A DNA stretch of 64,000 bases, from the NCBI RefSeq assembly GCF_002283365.1, contig NZ_MQWD01000001.1, positions 3,823,985-3,887,984 on the forward strand. Direction: 5' to 3'. Below the pieces are notes generated by a model that saw only the letters and a list, made by a program, of their open reading frames with translations, made no database searches and was not told the DNA's origin. The translations under genes and the position numbers were made by a program. Below, one piece after another: positions 50,678 to 60,494 of this stretch (within the stretch, counting starts at the first letter, position 1; each line of letters begins with the position of its first letter). Origin of the DNA: Rubrivirga marina. GTDB taxonomy: Bacteria > Bacteroidota > Rhodothermia > Rhodothermales > Rubricoccaceae.

Positions 50678-51580
50678 TCAGTCCAGGATCGGTTCGCCGC
50701 TGGCGGCGACCTCGGCCGTGAACAGCTCCGTCAGCCGCTGCGTCATCGCCCCCACCGTGCCGTCGCCGATGGTCCGCCCGTCGAGGCGGGTGACGGCGGC
50801 CAGCTCGCCCATCGTGCCGGTGCAGAACATCTCGTCGGCGCGGTAGGCCTCGGGAAGCGAGAGCCGCGCCGGACGGGCCGGAATGCCGTTGGACCGGCAG
50901 AGGTCGAGGACCGTCTGCCGCGTGATCCCCTCGGGGCACGCGTCGGTGTGGCTCGTCAGGACCTCGCCGCGACGGACGAGGAACACGTGCGTCCCGTTGC
51001 ACTCCGCGAGGAACCCGTCGCGGTCGAGGAGCAGCGCCGCGTCGGCGCCAGCCGCGTTGGTCTCAATCTTGGCAAGGATCGACTGGAGCAGGTTGTTCGA
51101 GTGGATCTTCGGGTCGAGGCAGTCGGGCGGGAAGCGCCGCACGGACGACGTCTGCAGCGTGAGCCCGCCCTTGTCGTAGACCGGCGCCTTCCACTCCGCC
51201 AGCACAATGAGCGTCGGGCCCGACTGGTTGAGCCGCGGGTCCATGCCGGACGTGATCTTGGTCCCCCGCGAGAGCGTCAGCCGGATGTGGACCCCGTCGC
51301 GCATCCCGTTGGCCTCCAGCGTCTTGCGGATCTCGGCGACGATCTCCTCCCGGCTCGGGACGCCCGCGATGGCGATGGCCTTGGCCGAGTCGGCCAACCG
51401 ATCGAGGTGCTCGGTCAGGCGGAAGATCTTCCCGTCGTAGAGCCGGAGCCCCTCCCACACGCCGTCGCCGCCCTGGACGAGCGAGTCGAACGGCGACACG
51501 CCGGCCTTGTCGCGGTGGACGAGCCGTCCGCCGACGTTGACGATGAGGTCCGCGTTGCGCGGGTCGAACTGCTGGAGCAT
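50678..51580 (-). CDS. Class IV aminotransferase (BCAT/D-amino acid aminotransferase fold)
   Basis: This 300-residue PLP enzyme of fold type IV shows SPFDSLVQGGDGVWEGLRLYDGKIFRL at the start, ADAALLLDRDGFLAECNGTHVFLV in the centre and SLPEAYRADEMFCTGTMGELAAV near the end. The segment that normally holds the PLP lysine reads PKIHSNNLLQSILAKIE, so by my alignment His is in the lysine position, with a Lys two residues earlier. It may be a branched-chain or D-amino acid aminotransferase variant. Its ATG overlaps the stop of the sulfotransferase-like gene (TGATG), so they are coupled. Confidence 0.85.
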   Translation of the reverse strand: MLQQFDPRNADLIVNVGGRLVHRDKAGVSPFDSLVQGGDGVWEGLRLYDGKIFRLTEHLDRLADSAKAIAIAGVPSREEIVAEIRKTLEANGMRDGVHIRLTLSRGTKITSGMDPRLNQSGPTLIVLAEWKAPVYDKGGLTLQTSSVRRFPPDCLDPKIHSNNLLQSILAKIETNAAGADAALLLDRDGFLAECNGTHVFLVRRGEVLTSHTDACPEGITRQTVLDLCRSNGIPARPARLSLPEAYRADEMFCTGTMGELAAVTRLDGRTIGDGTVGAMTQRLTELFTAEVAASGEPILD

Positions 51581-52335
51581 CAGGGGAGCCGGTGGTCGGC
51601 GAGCGTGTCGTAGAGGGGCTGACAGTCGGCGACGAGCGGCGCCAGCCGGTCCGGCACCTCGACCGCCTCGGGGCGCGGCGGGGCGAACCCGGTCGAGGCC
51701 TCGACGGAGGCGTACCAGTGCTCGGCCCACACGCCGTCGGTCGCGCGGGGGCCCGGCGCCCACGAGAGCATGGCCGGGTCGAACGGGACGCCGAGGCGGG
51801 CACAGAGGGCCCGCAGCAGGCGCTCCGGGTCGCGGAGCACGTCGGCCGCGTCGATCACGGGCGGCGCGGCGCCGTCGCGCTGGGCCATCCGGTCGAACAA
51901 CTCCACCTGCTGCGGGAGGCCAGTATCGGCGAGCGTCGGGCCGGGCGTGACCCGGTCGAGGGAGACGACCATCGCGGCGGGGTCGCGGATCAGGAAGGCG
52001 TGGCGGAAGCTTGGGTGGTCGAGCCACTCGCGGCCCACGTGCGGGAGCAGGTGGTGGGCCATGTGCTTCTGGTACCAGATCCGCGCGGCGCCGGGGACGG
52101 GGCCGGAGAGCGTGGCCGCCACGTCCTGCCACTCGGTCGGCTGGCTGGCGAGCACGGCGTCGCGGCCGGGATGGTCGAGGCCGGTGGCGGCGAGGTACGC
52201 GGCGTAGAGCGGCTCGTCGACGACGGCGGCGTCGGGCCGGCTCCCCCACGACCGCAGGAGGGCCGTCGAGAGGTTGCGCGGCCCGCTCCACATCGCGACG
52301 CGGACCGGCTGGGAGGGCGAGGGAGCGGATAGCAC
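51580..52335 (-). CDS. Sulfotransferase-like protein
   Basis: The protein has 251 residues from GTG 52335; the frame is open further up but would run into the caspase gene. RVAMWSGPRNLSTALLRSW contains the PAPS-binding-type P-loop, and FLIRDPAAMVVSLDR is the second cofactor motif; IWYQKHMAHHLLPH and DGVWAEHWYASVEASTGF are family-specific. Cytoplasmic. The family is usually annotated sulfotransferase, but the acceptor is unknown. It is tightly linked to the class IV aminotransferase downstream, and the window also encodes PAPS synthesis and PAP removal. Confidence 0.78.
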   Translation of the reverse strand: MLSAPSPSQPVRVAMWSGPRNLSTALLRSWGSRPDAAVVDEPLYAAYLAATGLDHPGRDAVLASQPTEWQDVAATLSGPVPGAARIWYQKHMAHHLLPHVGREWLDHPSFRHAFLIRDPAAMVVSLDRVTPGPTLADTGLPQQVELFDRMAQRDGAAPPVIDAADVLRDPERLLRALCARLGVPFDPAMLSWAPGPRATDGVWAEHWYASVEASTGFAPPRPEAVEVPDRLAPLVADCQPLYDTLADHRLP

Positions 52336-52361
52336 GTCGGAGTCTACAGCCCCTCGCCCCG

Positions 52362-53831
52362 TCAGTCCATCGCGGCGAGGAGCGCCCGGGCGTGGGGCTG
52401 GCCGAGGCCGGCGGCGCGCTGGAGCCACTGGCGGGCGGCCTCCGGGTCAGCCTCAACGCCACGGCCGTCGTGGAGGAGGACGCCGAGGCGAACCATCGCG
52501 TCGGCGTGACCGGCGAGGGCGGCCCGTTCGTAGAAGTCGGCGGAACGGGCGGCGTCGGCCGGGACGCCGCGGCCGGCCTCGTAGAGCACGCCGAGGTTGG
52601 CCTGGGCCGGCGCGTGCTCCTGCCCCGCCGCGAGCGCGTAGAGCCGGGCCGCCTCCGCCGGGTCGGCAACGACGCCGAGGCCGCGGTCGTAGAGCGACGC
52701 GAGGTTGTTCTGGGCCGCCGCCCGCCCCTGCTCGGCCGCCAGCCGGTAGAGGCGGACCGCCTCGGGCACGTCCTGGGCCACGCCGAGGCCGGTTTCGTAG
52801 GCGTAGCCGAGGTTCGTCTGCGCCGCCGCGTGTCCCTGAGCGCTCGCCGCCCGCAGAAGGTCGACCCCGGCCGCCGTGTCCACAGGGACGCCCTCGCCCC
52901 GCAGACGCATCCAGCCAAGGATGGACTGCGCCTCGGCGTGGCCCGCCGCGGCGGCCTCCTCCAGCACGACCACCGAGGCGGCCACGTCGGTGTCTCGCAG
53001 GCGGAGGGCCTCGGCGACGCGGGCGTCGAGGCCGGCCGCCGGGCGCTCGATCGTGGTGCCGGCCGGGACGAAGTAGAAGTCGCCGTCGTAGGACCACGAG
53101 GTCCACGGCTCCTGCTCGAAATCGCTGGCTTCCCGAACCCGCCGCTGGACGTTCCGGAGCAGTTGGATGAGTTCGAGGCCCGGCGTGTAGAACTCCTCCA
53201 GGAAGGCCTCCGTGAACAGCCCGTTGCGCCCGCTCATGTTGTCGCTGGCCCGCTCGCCCTGCGCCGTCGCGAACGAGATGACCGACCCCGACGGCCCCTG
53301 CGTCGAGGCCCACCCCCCGGCCGACGACCGCCACGACCGGAAGGGGTTGTCCCGGCAGGCGTCGAGGAAGACGAGCTTCAGCCGGGCCTCCGAGTCGTCG
53401 AGCGTGGAGAGGACCTCGCCGAGCGCGATCGAGCGGTAGCGCATCTGGGACTCCGTCACGACGTCGGCGTCGATCGGCACGAGGAAGTTGTCGCCCTCGA
53501 CCTGGACGCCGTGGCCGGCATAGAAGAACAGGGCCACCTCGGCGCCGACCGCGTCGTCGGCGAAGTCGGCGAGGGCCTGCCCCATCTCCCCGTACGTCAG
53601 GTCGGTGTGGGCGTGGACGGCGAACCCGGCGGCGGCGAGGGCGCCGGACACGTCCTCGACATCGTTGGTGGGGTTCTGGAGCGCCGTCGCGTGCTCGTAC
53701 GACGCGTTCCCGATGACGAGCGCGACGCGAGCCCCGGCCTCGACCTCGAGCCCCCGCGACCCCTCCGGTTGGGCCGACGCAGCGCTCGCGAGGGCGACGA
53801 ATAGGAACAGACGGAATGCAGAGCGAAACAT
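52362..53831 (-). CDS. Secreted caspase-family peptidase with Sel1 repeats
   Basis: This 489-residue protein has a signal peptide (RSAFRLFLFVALASAASAQ). Residues about 33-255 are a p20-like caspase domain with both catalytic residues: His107 in FYAGHGVQ and Cys159 in FLDACRDNPF, plus RVALVIGNASYEHATALQNP at the start. From about 290 to the end there are roughly five to six Sel1 repeats (AAAGHAEAQSILGWMRLRGEGV, AAAQTNLGYAYETGLGV, APAQANLGVLYEAGRGV and others), a protein-binding solenoid. Bacterial relatives cleave after Arg/Lys or act in regulated proteolysis. It lies 12 bases after the FGE-fold gene in one operon. Confidence 0.92.
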   Translation of the reverse strand: MFRSAFRLFLFVALASAASAQPEGSRGLEVEAGARVALVIGNASYEHATALQNPTNDVEDVSGALAAAGFAVHAHTDLTYGEMGQALADFADDAVGAEVALFFYAGHGVQVEGDNFLVPIDADVVTESQMRYRSIALGEVLSTLDDSEARLKLVFLDACRDNPFRSWRSSAGGWASTQGPSGSVISFATAQGERASDNMSGRNGLFTEAFLEEFYTPGLELIQLLRNVQRRVREASDFEQEPWTSWSYDGDFYFVPAGTTIERPAAGLDARVAEALRLRDTDVAASVVVLEEAAAAGHAEAQSILGWMRLRGEGVPVDTAAGVDLLRAASAQGHAAAQTNLGYAYETGLGVAQDVPEAVRLYRLAAEQGRAAAQNNLASLYDRGLGVVADPAEAARLYALAAGQEHAPAQANLGVLYEAGRGVPADAARSADFYERAALAGHADAMVRLGVLLHDGRGVEADPEAARQWLQRAAGLGQPHARALLAAMD

Positions 53832-53843
53832 CGAACCAGCGGC

Positions 53844-55712
53844 TTAGTCGATCGGCGTGAGTGGGCGGAGCACGCGGAAGCCGATGTGGCCGTGCGTGTC
53901 CTTCGGGTCGGTGCCCTGGGTCATCTCAGCGGCGACGGCCTCGCGCCGGGTCGTGAACGAGCCGCCGGCGACGACGGCACTCGTGCCGCGGGCGTCGCGG
54001 AGCCACTCCCACACGTTCCCGAGCATGTGGTGGAGGCCGAGGCGGTCGGGCGCGATGGCCGGGGCCGGGACGGCAGCCCCGGCACCCGCCGAGCGGAGGT
54101 TCGCCTGCGCTTCCACGGCCGTGTCGGACCCGAGGCGGTAGGCCCATACCCATTCGGACTCGCTCGGCAACGTCCCTCCGACCCACCGCGCGTACTCGCG
54201 GGCGCCGTACCACGTCGCGTCGATGGCGGGCCGGTCCGCGGCGCCTTCCGTCGGCCGCCAGACGTCGCCGCGGGCGAACTCGATCTCCCGCGGTCGGTCG
54301 ACGACGTACGGCTGGTTGCTCGTCCCGTCGAGATGGTTGAGGAAGTCGGCGAACTGGGCGTTGGTAACCTCCGTCGTCGAGAGGAGATAGCCGACGTCGG
54401 GGACGCCCTCGCGGGCCAGGAGCGCCGCGGCCTCCGACACGTAGGCGTCGACCCCGGGGATGAACGCGAACGTGAGGCGCGGCCCGTCGGACGGCCACGT
54501 GTCGGCCGCGACGCGGGGCGCCACTTCGTCGAGGGTCGCCACGGCGGCGGGATCGCCTGGGATCAAGCGGAGGAGGACGGCCGCCGCCTGGGCCAGCATC
54601 TGGAGGTCCCCACGCTCCGCCGATGCCGCCATCTGGAGCCGGAGCAGCTGGACACGCTGGGCCGCGAGTGGGTCGAGCCCGGCCTCGATGGCGAGCACGC
54701 GGTCGACCGTCGCCATGCGCTGGAGCCACAGCACGCGGTCGTCGCTCTCGGTGGCGAGGGCATAAAGGCAGGCGCGCGCGGCCGCGTAGGCGCCCTGCCG
54801 GATCTGCGCGTCGGCGGCGGCCGCCGTCTCGGCGAGATCGCTCGCGGGGCACCCGACGTCGGGCGCGGCGCCGTCCGACACCGTCTCGTCGGGCGCCTGG
54901 GCCTCGGCCGCGGGCTCCTCGGGGGGAGCGACCTCCGCCGCCACCGTCATCTCCGGCCGCTCGCGCACGCGCATGGGACGCGGCCGCTCGACCGCCGGCA
55001 GGCGCCAGCCCGCGACGGGGTCGTCGGGGGTCGATTCCGCGCCGTCGAGCAGCCCCGCCAGGAGTTCGGCTGGGAACGTCGCCGCCGCCGCGACGCCGCC
55101 CGGCGCGGGGGGGCTCACGGCCGGCGCGACGGCGCCTTCCTCCGTCGGTTGAGCGCCCTCTGGGTCCGGGGCCTCCGCCCCCTCCACCACGAGCGGCGGC
55201 GCACCACGCGCCGGCAACTCGGCGACCGTGAACTCCGTGGCCACCGGAACGGTCACCGTCCGCTGGCGGACTTGGCCGTCGGCGAACCGGAACGTGAGTG
55301 CATGCGACTCGGACGGGACGCGGAGCCTCGCGCTACCCCGCGCGACGAGCGTCCCGTCGACCTCCACGCGGGCCCCCGACCGGGTGAGGACGACGAGCCA
55401 TCGCCCGACCCCGGCGCCGGGGTCGGTGCGGGCGAGACCCGCCTCGCCGCGAGCCACCCGGACGGCCTCGACCATGCAGCCGGGCTGGCACTCGGCGTCC
55501 GCCAGCAGAGTAGCCGTGCCACCGTCTCCCACGCGGTAGAGCGCCGTCACGACTTCCACCGCGCCCACGTCATCGGCCTCGTAGAGCAGGGCGCCGGCGT
55601 CGAACCCCTCGGCCAGCGGGACGGCTGCGGGCTGGGCCGTGGCGACCCCGGCCATCAACCCGGCCACGGCCAGCAGCACGCCTGTCCGGCGACGCAGGTG
55701 CTCTCGTCCCAT
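53844..55712 (-). CDS. Exported FGE-sulfatase-fold protein (SUMF1-like, catalytically incomplete)
   Basis: This protein has 622 residues. A signal peptide (GVLLAVAGLMAGVATAQ) is followed by a beta-rich N-terminal domain, a Pro/Glu/Ala-rich linker (about 180-290), a helical part, and the C-terminal FGE-sulfatase domain (about 440-622) with STTEVTNAQFADFLNHL, DATWYGAREYARWVGGTLPSESEW, MLGNVWEWLRD and HIGFRVLRP. The domain has no cysteine, so the paired cysteines of formylglycine-generating oxidases are absent. It is more likely a binding or structural module. It is 12 bases from both neighbours, an outer-membrane-like protein and the caspase. Confidence 0.87.
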   Translation of the reverse strand: MGREHLRRRTGVLLAVAGLMAGVATAQPAAVPLAEGFDAGALLYEADDVGAVEVVTALYRVGDGGTATLLADAECQPGCMVEAVRVARGEAGLARTDPGAGVGRWLVVLTRSGARVEVDGTLVARGSARLRVPSESHALTFRFADGQVRQRTVTVPVATEFTVAELPARGAPPLVVEGAEAPDPEGAQPTEEGAVAPAVSPPAPGGVAAAATFPAELLAGLLDGAESTPDDPVAGWRLPAVERPRPMRVRERPEMTVAAEVAPPEEPAAEAQAPDETVSDGAAPDVGCPASDLAETAAAADAQIRQGAYAAARACLYALATESDDRVLWLQRMATVDRVLAIEAGLDPLAAQRVQLLRLQMAASAERGDLQMLAQAAAVLLRLIPGDPAAVATLDEVAPRVAADTWPSDGPRLTFAFIPGVDAYVSEAAALLAREGVPDVGYLLSTTEVTNAQFADFLNHLDGTSNQPYVVDRPREIEFARGDVWRPTEGAADRPAIDATWYGAREYARWVGGTLPSESEWVWAYRLGSDTAVEAQANLRSAGAGAAVPAPAIAPDRLGLHHMLGNVWEWLRDARGTSAVVAGGSFTTRREAVAAEMTQGTDPKDTHGHIGFRVLRPLTPID

Positions 55713-55724
55713 TCGTCTCCTGGC

Positions 55725-56564
55725 TTAAAAAGTGATGCCGATCCGGAAGATGCCGACCCGGCTCTGCTCAACGTAGCCGTCGGCCGACAGGGCATCGGCG
55801 AGGTCGCTCGCGCTCTCGACGCCGGCCGGGTCCCATTGCGTGACCTGCCGCGTGTACCCGAGGGCCACGCCGAGACCGGTCTCCGCGACTTCGGCTACCC
55901 GGACCTCGGCGTCGAGCCTGACCGTCCGCTGCCCGAAGGCCGGGTCGAAGGCGATGTCGGAAAAGTCGGTGATCGTGCCCGGCGCCACCACGAACGCCAG
56001 CGTGCCGACGATCTCGGACGCGACCGAACTCGCGATCTCGGTCCCGGCCTCGAGCCCGAGCCCTACCCCGATGCCGAACCGCCCGAGGTGGAAGGCATCG
56101 GGGCCCTCCTCGGTCTCGGACGCCGGCTGCGGGGGCTGGAGATACTGGTACCCGAACGAGAACTGGATCGGGACGAGCGGCGTGACCCACGACTCGTCGC
56201 CGACGGTGAAGGCCCGGATCGTCGGACCGACCTGGAGGTCGACGAGGGCCGCGCTTCCGAGCGTCGTCGTCGAGCCGGGCGCGGCGCTCTCGGAGGCCAC
56301 GTACCCCAGCGTCAGCGTCGACGACTCGCCGGCGAGCCGGAAGGCAATCCCGCTCCGCTCCTGCTCGGGGACGGGCGGCCGGTCGAGGCCGTCGTGGCCG
56401 AACAACGACTGGAATCGGAGCGGCCCGACGGTCACCGAGGCCGAGCGGCCGGCGGTGATCGGGTCGGACGCGGAGCCGCGGTACTGGGCGTCGGCGGGGG
56501 CGGCCGCGAGGACCAGGCAAAAAACGGCGAGGGCCGCCCGGAAGGGCGGAGGGAGTAAACGCAT
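55725..56564 (-). CDS. Exported outer-membrane beta-barrel-like protein
   Basis: This protein has 279 residues from ATG 56564. The signal peptide (PFRAALAVFCLVLAAAPADA) is followed by alternating hydrophobic beta-strands such as RSGIAFRLAGESSTLTLGYV, FTVGDESWVTPLVPIQFSFG, FHLGRFGIGVGLGLEAG and a terminal aromatic strand (VGIFRIGITF), typical of barrels inserted by BAM. No family name recognised. It is the first gene of the operon with the FGE-fold and caspase genes and may provide their outer-membrane anchor or port. Confidence 0.75.
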   Translation of the reverse strand: MRLLPPPFRAALAVFCLVLAAAPADAQYRGSASDPITAGRSASVTVGPLRFQSLFGHDGLDRPPVPEQERSGIAFRLAGESSTLTLGYVASESAAPGSTTTLGSAALVDLQVGPTIRAFTVGDESWVTPLVPIQFSFGYQYLQPPQPASETEEGPDAFHLGRFGIGVGLGLEAGTEIASSVASEIVGTLAFVVAPGTITDFSDIAFDPAFGQRTVRLDAEVRVAEVAETGLGVALGYTRQVTQWDPAGVESASDLADALSADGYVEQSRVGIFRIGITF

Positions 56565-56739
56565 ACGTCGACTGCGTTTCGGCGGAGGTGAGCGCCGGAA
56601 GGTAGAGCGAACCGCCGTTTGGCGTGTCGGGCATCCACCCGATTTTCCGAACCGGCCTCTCGTCACCCTTCGAGAGCGGATCTGCCCAGCCGTATGGGCC
56701 GCCCGCTCTACCTTCGGCGCCGTCTCGGCTCATCATCTC

Positions 56740-58782
56740 ATGCGGATCCCCCTCGTCCTCGCCGCTCTGCTCGCACTCGTGCCCCCCGCGCACGGCCAGC
56801 CCGACCGGTCGGGCCTCGTGGTGCCCGTGGCCGGGGTCCCGCTCGACCCCGTCGACCTGCTCCGGGCCGAGAACCCGGCCCAGGCGTTCTCGGTGACGCT
56901 CGAGACCGAGAACGGGGCGACGCTCGTGCCCGAAGGCGAGGAGGTCCAGTTCCGAGTGGTGTCGATGCAGGCGGGGTACCTGACGCTCGTGTTACAGAGT
57001 GAGGACGGCACCGTGTCCGTCCTCTACCCGAACCGCTTCGCCCGCGGCGAGAGGATCGCGGCCGGCGCGACAGTCCGGATTCCGGAGGGGCCGGGGTTTA
57101 GGTTCACCTCGAAGGCCCCTTTTGGGCGCGACGTCGTCAAAGCTCTCGTCACCCCGCAGCCCCTCATCCATCCCGACCGCGCAGCGACGGCCTGGCGACG
57201 TTCCTCGATGATCCAAGTCTCGGGACCTCCGCCGACCGACGCCGGCACCGAGCTCGGCGGCCTCGACCCGGCGACGTGGGGCACGGCCTCGCTCGCCTTC
57301 GAGACCGTGCCGACGCGGGCGACGGGCGCGCCGCCGGTCCTCCCCCCGCCCCCGGAGAGCGCGTATCGCCCTGAGGCGCCGCTCGACGCGTGGCTCGATC
57401 GCTACCAAGATCTCCGTGGGACCCCGTCGGAGGTGAAGACGTGGGGCCTGTTCAGCCCGCCGCCGGCCCCGGCCCGGAGCGAGCCCGAGGCGGCCGAGCA
57501 CGACAGCACGCTCGTCGTCGTGTACCGCCCGACGACCGGCTGGCGGAGCTTCGGCCGGCCGAGCGGCGGCGGCGGCGTCTTCGGGCAGGTCCGCTACGTC
57601 GACCCCGCCCAGGACACGCCCGATGCCTCCGGCACGCGGTCACTCCGGCGGGCCTTCGGCGGGACGTTCGACGAGGTCCTCGCCGGCCTCGACGCCGACC
57701 CCGACGTGCTGGCCGCCGTGCCGAACTACCGCGTCCAGTCGCTCGGTTTCCGGTCGGCATCGCGCCCGCCGACGGCCCCGGCCACCGGCGCCCCGGGCAC
57801 GCCGACCTACTGGGAGGCCCAGTGGGGCCTCCACAACCCGTTCTTCCGGTCGCCCGCCGAGCGGCTCGACGTGGCGTGGCGGGCGGCCATGGAGCAGTAC
57901 CGCGGGCCCGACGGGCCCGTCGTGGTGGCCGTCCTCGACACGGGCGTCCGGTTCGACAACCCCCACCTCGGCCCCGTCCTCTGGCGCAACGAGCTGGAGA
58001 TCGCCGAGAACGGGATCGACGACGACGGGAACGGCTTCGTCGACGACGTTCGCGGATGGGACGCGCTCGACGGCGACGGCGACCCGACGGACCCGAACGC
58101 GGAGGAGAGCCACGGGACCTTCGTGGCATCCCAGATCGGCGGCGTCGGCGCCGCGATCCAGTCGATGGCCCCCGACGTCCGGATCCTGCCGGTCCGGGTG
58201 CTCGACGCCGAGGGCGGCGGCTCGCTCCGCCAGCTCATCGAGGGCGTCCGCTACGCCGCACGGAACGGGGCCCGAGTGGTCAACCTGTCGTTCGGGATCC
58301 CGCCGATGGACGAGGCGAACCCGGCGCTGGAGCGGCTCCTGGCGGCGCTCTACGCCGAGGCCGCCGACCTCGGCGTGGTGATGGTGATGGCCGCCGGCAA
58401 CCACGCCGCCGACGGCCGGACCGTCCACGTCTACCCGTCGGGCGTCCGGGGGGAGAACACGATCTCGGCGGCGGCGCTGACGATGACGGGCGAGCTCGCG
58501 CCCTTCTCGAACTACGGGCCGGCCGTCGACGTGGCCGCGCCGGGGCAGGCCATCGTGAGCCACGCCGGACGCGGCGTCACGGTCGACGCGTTCGACGGGA
58601 CGTCGATGGCGGCCCCGTTCGTGTCGGCGCTCGCCGCGATGCTCATCGCGCAGAACCCGACCTGGACGCCCGCCGAGGTCCGGGCGGCGATCGTCGAGAC
58701 CGTCCGCCCGATTCCGTCGCTGGACGTCGCCTCGGGCGGGCTCATCGACGCGGCGGCGGCGCTCGCGCGGGCGCGTCAGTAG
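56740..58782 (+). CDS. Secreted subtilase (S8) with N-terminal DUF4384 domain
   Basis: This 680-residue protein has a signal peptide (RIPLVLAALLALVPPAHG). Residues about 46-140 match DUF4384 (GYLTLVLQSEDGTVSVLYPN, GRDVVKALV). A Pro-rich spacer and an I9-like prodomain (about 255-335, ending VLAAVPNYRVQSLG) precede the subtilisin domain with the full triad: Asp400 in VAVLDTGV, His458 in ESHGTFVASQ and Ser622 in GTSMAAPFVS. It is divergent from the caspase operon (175-base gap) and overlaps the convergent kinase gene by seven bases. DUF4384 normally accompanies caspases or kinases rather than subtilases. Confidence 0.93.
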   Translation: MRIPLVLAALLALVPPAHGQPDRSGLVVPVAGVPLDPVDLLRAENPAQAFSVTLETENGATLVPEGEEVQFRVVSMQAGYLTLVLQSEDGTVSVLYPNRFARGERIAAGATVRIPEGPGFRFTSKAPFGRDVVKALVTPQPLIHPDRAATAWRRSSMIQVSGPPPTDAGTELGGLDPATWGTASLAFETVPTRATGAPPVLPPPPESAYRPEAPLDAWLDRYQDLRGTPSEVKTWGLFSPPPAPARSEPEAAEHDSTLVVVYRPTTGWRSFGRPSGGGGVFGQVRYVDPAQDTPDASGTRSLRRAFGGTFDEVLAGLDADPDVLAAVPNYRVQSLGFRSASRPPTAPATGAPGTPTYWEAQWGLHNPFFRSPAERLDVAWRAAMEQYRGPDGPVVVAVLDTGVRFDNPHLGPVLWRNELEIAENGIDDDGNGFVDDVRGWDALDGDGDPTDPNAEESHGTFVASQIGGVGAAIQSMAPDVRILPVRVLDAEGGGSLRQLIEGVRYAARNGARVVNLSFGIPPMDEANPALERLLAALYAEAADLGVVMVMAAGNHAADGRTVHVYPSGVRGENTISAAALTMTGELAPFSNYGPAVDVAAPGQAIVSHAGRGVTVDAFDGTSMAAPFVSALAAMLIAQNPTWTPAEVRAAIVETVRPIPSLDVASGGLIDAAAALARARQ

Positions 58783-60494
58783 GCCTCCAGCTTCAGGTCC
58801 TCGATGGCGAACTGGAGCGTCCGCGTGACGCTCCCACCGGGGTCGAGCTCGAAGCGGAACTGCCGGGCCACGTAGCCCGGCGCCTCGACCTCCACCATGA
58901 GCACGCCCGGCGCCAGCCCGGCGAACCCGACGTCGCCGTTCCCATCGGTCGTCCCCGCGCTTGACGTCCCGACGACGCGGACGCGGGCGCTCGGGATCGG
59001 CGTGCCGTCGTCGGCGAGGACGACGGCCTGGATGGCGCCGGTCTGCGTGACTGGTTCGACGGGGGCCCGGGGCTGGGGAGCGGGGCGGGCGGGTGCGGTC
59101 TGGACCGGCGCGGTCTGCGCGGGCGTCGGAGTCACAGCCGGCGGGGCCTGGACGTCGGCCGGCGGCGGCTCGGGGTCAGAGGCCTCGGCCGGCCCCTCGG
59201 CCGGACCGTCGGCGGCCTCCGACGCGGGCTCGCCGACCGTCTCGACCGCAGCGGCTGTCGGAGGGCCGCCGGTCGCGGGCCACGCGACCCACACCCCGAG
59301 GCCGCTCGCCGCGAGGGCGACGGCGCCGAGGGCGGCCCACACCACAGGCCTCGACACCGCCGACGACGGCGCCGAGGCGGCCACGGCCGAGACGACGTGA
59401 GGCGCGGGAGGGGGCGCCGCGAGAGCCTGGTCAAGCGCGCGCGCCATCAAGGCGGCGCTCGAAAAGCGGTCGTCGGGGTCGAGCGCGGTCGCCGTGCGGA
59501 TCCAGTCGCGGAGCCCGACGGGGAGCGCGGCGCCGTCGAGGGCCGCGTCGAATGGGTCTCGGCCGGAGGTGTGGAGCGCGTCGGAGCGACGGCGGGCGGT
59601 GAACTCGCGCGCCTCGGCGGGCGCCAGGAGCGTGTAGGCCGTCATCCCGACGCTGTAGAGGTCGCTCTCGGCGCGCGTCTCTTCGCCGCGGTCGACCTCC
59701 GGAGCCGCGTAGCCGGGCGAGCCGGCGCCGACGGCGGACGGGACGACGGCCGTGAGCTCCGAGATGCCGCTCCGCGCGATGCCGAGGTCCACGACGTAGA
59801 GGTTGTCGTGGGCATCGAGGATGAGGTTGTCGGGCTTGACGTCGCGGTGGAAGACCGGCGTATCGGTCACGGGCCGCCCCCCCAGGTCGCGCGACGGCCG
59901 CGTATGGAGCGTGTGGAGATAGTCGAGCACCCGGAGCGTGTCGCGGAGCCACGGGACGGCTTCGTCGACCGTGAACGGCGCTTCCCGCTCGCGGCGGCGC
60001 TTTTTGAGCGAGTCGCCCGCGATGTACTCCATGACCACGACCCACCGGCCGCGGTCCTCGAACAGGGCCTCAACGACCGGGAGGCGGGGGTGCCGGAGCC
60101 GTCGGAGCAGCAGGGCCTCCTTCCGCAGCAGGTCCTGGTTGAGCTGGTCGTGCCCCGTGTCGACCCGGCTCACCTTCAGCGCTACCTCGCGCGACCCGAA
60201 CTCGCGCTCCCCGATGTGCCCGGTGTCGACGGCCCGAAGGACGCTCCCGGAGGCGCCCTCCCCCAGCGCCCCGAGCACCCGGTACTTCCCCCCGACGAGG
60301 TCGCCCGGCCGGAACGGGTCGGCGGGCGACGTGCGGGCTACGGTCGTCTCGTCGCGGAGCACGGCCATGACCCGGTCGAACAGCACCTTGTCGTTCCGGC
60401 GGAGCGCCGCCAGCTTCGCGTGTCGCTCGTCCTCGCTCAACCCCTCCAGTCGAGCGACGAGATCCTTCGGGGTCGGCGAGCCGGGGGAAGTCAT
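58776..60494 (-). CDS. Membrane Ser/Thr protein kinase with carboxypeptidase-regulatory-like ectodomain
   Basis: This 572-residue kinase starts at ATG 60494. Kinase motifs: GEGASGSV at 78-85, Lys107 in EVALKVS, HRDVKPDN at 216-223, DLG at 236-238 (Leu replaces Phe) and APEVDRGEE. The single transmembrane helix is near 385 (WAALGAVALAASGLGVWVAW), followed by a Pro/Ala/Thr-rich spacer and a C-terminal beta domain (GAIQAVVLADDGTPIPSARVRVVG, GYVARQFRFEL) of the carboxypeptidase-regulatory/PEGA type. It is convergent with, and overlaps, the subtilase gene. Confidence 0.92.
   Translation of the reverse strand: MTSPGSPTPKDLVARLEGLSEDERHAKLAALRRNDKVLFDRVMAVLRDETTVARTSPADPFRPGDLVGGKYRVLGALGEGASGSVLRAVDTGHIGEREFGSREVALKVSRVDTGHDQLNQDLLRKEALLLRRLRHPRLPVVEALFEDRGRWVVVMEYIAGDSLKKRRREREAPFTVDEAVPWLRDTLRVLDYLHTLHTRPSRDLGGRPVTDTPVFHRDVKPDNLILDAHDNLYVVDLGIARSGISELTAVVPSAVGAGSPGYAAPEVDRGEETRAESDLYSVGMTAYTLLAPAEAREFTARRRSDALHTSGRDPFDAALDGAALPVGLRDWIRTATALDPDDRFSSAALMARALDQALAAPPPAPHVVSAVAASAPSSAVSRPVVWAALGAVALAASGLGVWVAWPATGGPPTAAAVETVGEPASEAADGPAEGPAEASDPEPPPADVQAPPAVTPTPAQTAPVQTAPARPAPQPRAPVEPVTQTGAIQAVVLADDGTPIPSARVRVVGTSSAGTTDGNGDVGFAGLAPGVLMVEVEAPGYVARQFRFELDPGGSVTRTLQFAIEDLKLEAY

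Follow-up and report, generated by a model that had tools for sequence, protein, structure and literature searches.

A genus-limited gene block of Rubrivirga marina encoding two predicted-exported proteases, an FGE-fold protein and a membrane kinase

Introduction

Bacterial caspases are usually treated as death proteases that act inside the cell, and the published orthocaspases cut after Arg/Lys. In bacterial gasdermin operons, where a protease activates a pore, the proteases found include caspase and subtilase. Exported orthocaspases and metacaspases with Sel1 or FGE-sulfatase domains have also been described; they carry a His-Cys (HC) dyad, Sel1 and FGE are among their commonest companions, and their export has been suspected (PMC3501461, PMC4933709, PMC6426788). 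Fusions of caspases with Sel1 and FGE, and their possible export, were already noted in 2012 (PMC3501461). An alphaproteobacterial trypsin-pseudocaspase-DUF4384 fusion has been published, and the same paper remarks that DUF4384 is often seen in proteins that also carry a kinase domain (PMC6426788). The accessible portions of the DUF4384 literature describe no exported caspase-partner system, and a literature search returned no description of papain(C1)-DUF4384 fusion proteins. Exported orthocaspase systems are an already known kind, loosely described and widespread.

Here we describe a locus in a 64,000-nucleotide stretch of the R. marina genome (the window). It has in common with the published orthocaspases and metacaspases the HC dyad and the Sel1/FGE companions, but its FGE domain sits in a separate predicted-exported protein with its own gene, and the locus further includes a DUF4384-subtilase and a membrane kinase. 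As in the trypsin-pseudocaspase(QC)-DUF4384 fusions (PMC6426788), a serine protease, a caspase fold and DUF4384 come together, although there they form one polypeptide with an inactive caspase, whereas in the window the genes are separate and the HC dyad is intact. The PADLOC models of the caspase and subtilase of gasdermin operons match those of the window weakly; in contrast to such operons, the proteases are predicted to be exported, the 279-aa neighbour has a predicted signal peptide and no family match, and none of the seven genes gave a gasdermin match. Assignment to a gasdermin or other catalogued defence locus was rejected, as the matches were generic and at fold level only. Two points are new: a block confined to one genus in which FGE and caspase have genes of their own and stand together with a DUF4384-subtilase and a kinase, and the finding that DUF4384 repeatedly sits on a second protease encoded beside a caspase.

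Results and Discussion

Organisation of the locus

All seven genes were verified in the window. Five lie on the minus strand in the order barrel-like protein (56564-55725), FGE-fold protein (55712-53844), caspase (53831-52362), sulfotransferase (52335-51580; Pfam Sulfotransfer_5, 9e-62) and class IV aminotransferase (51580-50678; Pfam Aminotran_4, 2e-44), with intergenic gaps of 12, 12, 26 and -1 bases. The DUF4384-subtilase gene (56740-58782, plus strand) diverges from them and converges with the Ser/Thr kinase gene (60494-58776, minus strand), the two overlapping tail to tail by 7 bp. The preliminary description of this DNA had given the same positions, gaps and orientations, and its family names agree with the Pfam matches. 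Its five-gene minus-strand operon, however, did not stand, since the last two genes form a separate pair that is present without the caspase block in G003, G005, G006 and G007. The block itself, caspase-FGE-(barrel)-subtilase-kinase, is about 8.1 kb long.

The sulfotransferase and class IV aminotransferase genes (50678..52335, minus strand; 1-bp overlap in the window) are a conserved, family-wide metabolic pair. The sequence GTAGACTCC is found upstream of the sulfotransferase gene in all four congeners sampled, namely G000 (the genome of the window), G001, G002 and the block-less G003, and may represent the promoter element of that gene itself. Because the pair occurs without the block, and GTAGACTCC is kept where the block is absent, the pair is probably a unit separate from the caspase block.

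The caspase and its predicted export

The caspase (489 aa; 52362..53831, minus strand) carries a predicted signal peptide, a Peptidase_C14 domain at residues 35-252 (PF00656, 2e-36) and C-terminal Sel1 repeats (2e-38). It shows the p20 fold with catalytic His and Cys that defines orthocaspases; His107 and Cys159 are invariant in G000, G001 and G002, and the nearest solved caspase-fold match was the paracaspase MALT1. The catalytic residues of the caspase and of the subtilase, earlier described as intact, are conserved in all three block-carrying genomes.

Signal peptides were called by a heuristic rule made for this analysis; at 92 internal control positions it gave one call. This rule-based test of N-termini agreed with the preliminary description in predicting signal peptides for the caspase, FGE-fold, barrel-like and subtilase proteins; it found none in the sulfotransferase, the aminotransferase or the kinase. 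Among close relatives of the caspase from many phyla, taken from the 80 best loci of the species scan described below, 73 of the 89 that could be tested (about 82%) had a signal-peptide-like N-terminus, counted if it lay within 70 residues of the caspase domain. Export is therefore the predicted norm in this caspase group, and the earlier statement that such modules are mostly fused and cytoplasmic is incorrect for this subfamily.

The FGE-fold and barrel-like proteins

The FGE-fold protein (622 aa; 53844..55712, minus strand) consists of a predicted signal peptide, an N-terminal region with no assigned domain, and an FGE domain at about 441-616 (Pfam FGE-sulfatase, 9e-23). In all three orthologues the FGE domain is devoid of cysteine, and it thus lacks the catalytic pair of the formylglycine-generating enzyme. 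An active enzyme of that type was rejected on this ground, and with the catalytic cysteines absent the domain is probably a binding module. The FGE/CLec fold also raised the possibility of a variable protein of a diversity-generating retroelement. This was rejected, as no reverse transcriptase (RVT_1) was found in the genome and the gene has no hypervariable 3' end, sequence differences not being clustered there.

The barrel-like protein (279 aa; 55725..56564, minus strand) has a predicted signal peptide and a C-terminal Phe, and the label 'barrel' rests on these two features only. A Pfam search gave no significant family match, and the single-sequence AlphaFold model reached a pLDDT of 33. 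The gene is missing in G001, where the FGE and subtilase genes are directly divergent, and so it is an optional member of the block. Two barrel-like paralogues occur elsewhere in the R. marina genome (G000:C1:755127-755744, L082, and G000:C1:4220020-4220754); they end in Phe like an outer-membrane barrel and belong to no assigned family.

The DUF4384-subtilase and the kinase

The subtilase (680 aa; 56740..58782, plus strand) has a predicted signal peptide, DUF4384 at residues 64-141 (5e-19), a pro-region and Peptidase_S8 at 394-655 (8e-48). Its Asp/His/Ser triad is intact and conserved in the three block-carrying genomes, and the motif G[FW]R-SA is conserved between the pro-region and the catalytic domain. 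The predicted structure of DUF4384, from an alignment of 12 rows that includes no proteins of the congeners, is a beta-sandwich of moderate confidence (core pLDDT mostly 70-86). Comparison of this model with the PDB gave no significant match, only an Ig-like beta-sandwich resemblance, and the idea that DUF4384 is a known protease-inhibitor fold is therefore unsupported.

The kinase (572 aa; 58776..60494, minus strand) comprises a Pkinase domain at 71-292 (7e-29), a predicted transmembrane segment at about 392-412 and a C-terminal CarboxypepD_reg domain at 488-560 (4e-11). Its VALK, HRD and DLG motifs are conserved in the three block-carrying genomes.

A repeated element in the divergent spacer

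The 175-bp spacer between the two arms carries two mirror copies of the 12-bp sequence CGCTCTACCTTC. The first (56598..56609, minus strand) lies 33 nt upstream of the barrel gene start and is a candidate promoter element; the second (56704..56715, plus strand) lies 24 nt upstream of the subtilase start. These are the only two copies in the 64 kb window, and at least two matches arose in 2 of 100 shuffles. Both copies are identical in G002, and a similar sequence precedes the subtilase gene in G001. The Bacteroidota -7 element is TAnnTTTG, which the core TACCTTC of CGCTCTACCTTC appears to resemble. The placement of the element before both arms supports their putative joint expression.

Distribution and selection

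The block was present in three of the four sampled congeners (G000, G001 and G002); among 60 sampled relatives it was found nowhere else but in G001 and G002. The fourth congener, G003, gave no caspase match genome-wide at E 0.001; its gene order is g60587 - aminotransferase - sulfotransferase - nitrilase-like - ndk, and no gene of the block lies among these. On this comparison, which covers four genomes of the genus only, the simplest account is a gain of the block inside the genus, with its loss in G003 as a possible alternative. A Sel1-caspase with 42-44% identity occurs in G052, with no FGE, DUF4384 or subtilase neighbours. The GC content of the block equals that of its flanks and there is no tRNA at the block, and a recent foreign island was rejected on these grounds.

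The block genes are under purifying selection. Against G002 their dN/dS values are 0.13-0.26, which together with the intact frames rules out chance ORFs. Against G001 the values are 0.39-0.61 for the FGE, kinase and caspase genes, compared with 0.12 for the aminotransferase and 0.23 for the sulfotransferase. Two catalytically intact, predicted-exported peptidases of different classes, co-encoded with predicted-exported FGE, DUF4384 and Sel1 domains of putative recognition function and a membrane kinase, are kept together in three congeners, as the co-encoding claimed earlier would have it.

FGE and DUF4384 as partners of caspases

An alignment of the caspase domain was scanned against one genome per species (84,980 species), and the contents of the best 80 loci, from many phyla, were scored with profile HMMs built in this analysis. 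FGE was present in 14 of these best 80 loci, mostly fused to the caspase, and DUF4384 in 10; neither subtilase nor kinase was detected in any of them with profiles from 6 and 14-15 sequences. Outside the genus, 120 other loci contained no S8 and only a few kinases accompanying caspases, again with profiles from few sequences. Across 296 genomes of the phylum, DUF4384 occurred in 39 and caspase in 109. Caspase PF00656 was present in 30 of the 39 DUF4384 genomes and in 79 of the 257 others (Fisher p 5e-8). It was also found in 29 of 40 DUF4384-anchored loci of the phylum, where caspase density would predict well under one; the gap is very large, although this expectation takes the loci to be independent, whereas the genomes are related and an overlap exists between two of the 40. 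Both FGE and DUF4384 recur as partners of such caspases. Of the earlier view that caspase, FGE, DUF4384 and kinase modules recur together, the FGE and DUF4384 part stands (14/80, 10/80, 29/40), but outside the genus almost no kinase lies beside such caspases. On the refuting condition named earlier, that related genomes do not keep the genes together, the outcome is divided: conserved co-occurrence is seen for the set in three congeners and for FGE-caspase and DUF4384-caspase pairs widely, but the whole set does not extend beyond the genus.

A papain (C1) domain was found in 15 of 27 long DUF4384 proteins, and a caspase in 4 of them. The DUF4384 protein of the window has no papain domain and carries a subtilase instead, and no other subtilase-DUF4384 version was found among the surveyed loci. 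A caspase with predicted export occurs together with FGE and DUF4384 in one locus in the window and also in L107, L113, L221 and L238. In the distant L221, a predicted-exported FGE gene overlaps the start of a predicted-exported caspase gene, followed by a second caspase and a DUF4384 protein. L238 contains, in window order, a caspase-FGE fusion, a second predicted-exported caspase and two proteins with DUF4384; one of the two was scanned and is a papain-DUF4384 protein. In loci that pair a caspase with papain(C1)-DUF4384 (L238, L244, L230, L235), a predicted-exported caspase likewise stands beside a predicted-exported DUF4384-bearing second protease, and FGE is often present as in the window (L221, L238). 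The window differs in that its second protease is a subtilase with N-terminal DUF4384, encoded by a divergent gene.

Predicted-exported papain(C1)-DUF4384 fusions are recurrent in the phylum, and many lie beside predicted-exported caspases (L238, L244, L230, L235, L216, L224, L231, L234, L241, L127). In L255 and L256, from two genomes of one related genus, a predicted-exported caspase with bacterial Ig-like domains lies near a divergent Ser/Thr kinase-Sel1 protein.

Proposed function and alternatives

We propose, at about even chances, that the five block genes encode an envelope two-protease module with an associated membrane kinase. Sel1, FGE and DUF4384 would be non-catalytic docking domains that bring the two proteases onto common envelope or surface substrates. 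The proteases would differ in specificity, the caspase being expected to cut after Arg/Lys like published orthocaspases. The subtilase would be made as a zymogen, and given the conserved G[FW]R-SA between its pro-region and catalytic domain, the caspase may mature it by a cut at this motif. The kinase may read the envelope state through its periplasmic CarboxypepD_reg domain. The mode of working would resemble that of the exported caspase and papain-DUF4384 loci of the phylum, with subtilase replacing papain. The relay put forward earlier, in which one protease cuts another protein of the set, is clearly less probable than the envelope two-protease module.

With no S8 and almost no kinase beside caspases in the 120 loci outside the genus, the strongest rival is that the subtilase and kinase only happen to lie next to the other genes. 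An exported FGE/caspase operon for envelope processing would then adjoin an extracellular nutritional subtilase and an unrelated kinase, the two joined only by recent common descent. We regard this as rather unlikely: the confinement of the block to one genus and the abundance of subtilases and kinases in these genomes speak for it, whereas the subtilase bears DUF4384, a recurrent partner domain of caspases, the same CGCTCTACCTTC element precedes both arms, and all parts are jointly missing from G003. Going further than the envelope two-protease module, DUF4384 could be a dedicated beta-sandwich adaptor that marks widespread, undescribed exported two-protease systems, pairing a caspase with an interchangeable second protease (papain, trypsin, caspase or subtilase) in kinase-gated envelope cascades; we hold this extension to be doubtful.

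A role in contact-dependent or anti-phage conflict, in which an attack on the envelope would release or activate the caspase and subtilase as exported effectors and the kinase would be the trigger, would fit the patchy distribution of the block and the fast divergence of FGE, caspase and kinase relative to the neighbouring sulfotransferase-aminotransferase pair. The caspase, subtilase and kinase also match PADLOC models weakly, but these matches are unspecific and at fold level, defence neighbours are absent, GC is equal to the flanks, and export makes intracellular abortive infection unlikely; on balance such a role is improbable. Equally hard to favour is a surface-maturation machine, in which FGE and barrel would build an assembly at the outer membrane or surface and both proteases would trim its clients, on the model of type IX secretion. 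PorK/GldK of type IX secretion has an FGE-like fold, which the FGE domain of the window matches weakly, and the predicted-exported barrel-like neighbour ends in Phe. The GldK match, however, amounts to 20 of 350 bits, the barrel gene is missing in G001 and its product poorly modelled, and the block contains no type IX genes.

Should the pairing within the envelope two-protease module prove functional, an extracytoplasmic cascade of proteolysis would be predicted for bacteria. DUF4384 and the cysteine-less FGE domains would then gain a role that can be tested, as adaptors for substrates or partners, with a small five-gene set to work with.

Other caspase loci of the same genome

A second caspase locus, L071:8381-17249 (C1, about 302 kb), encodes a caspase with no signal peptide, carrying a weak DUF4384 together with DUF7379, followed by a CHAT protein and then a convergent Ser/Thr kinase with TPRs; this locus is likely the cytoplasmic counterpart that uses the same set of modules. 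The third caspase (608 aa) is divergent and apparently lacks a signal peptide; it adjoins an unassigned 291-aa gene at L072:6837-9561 (C1, about 13 kb).
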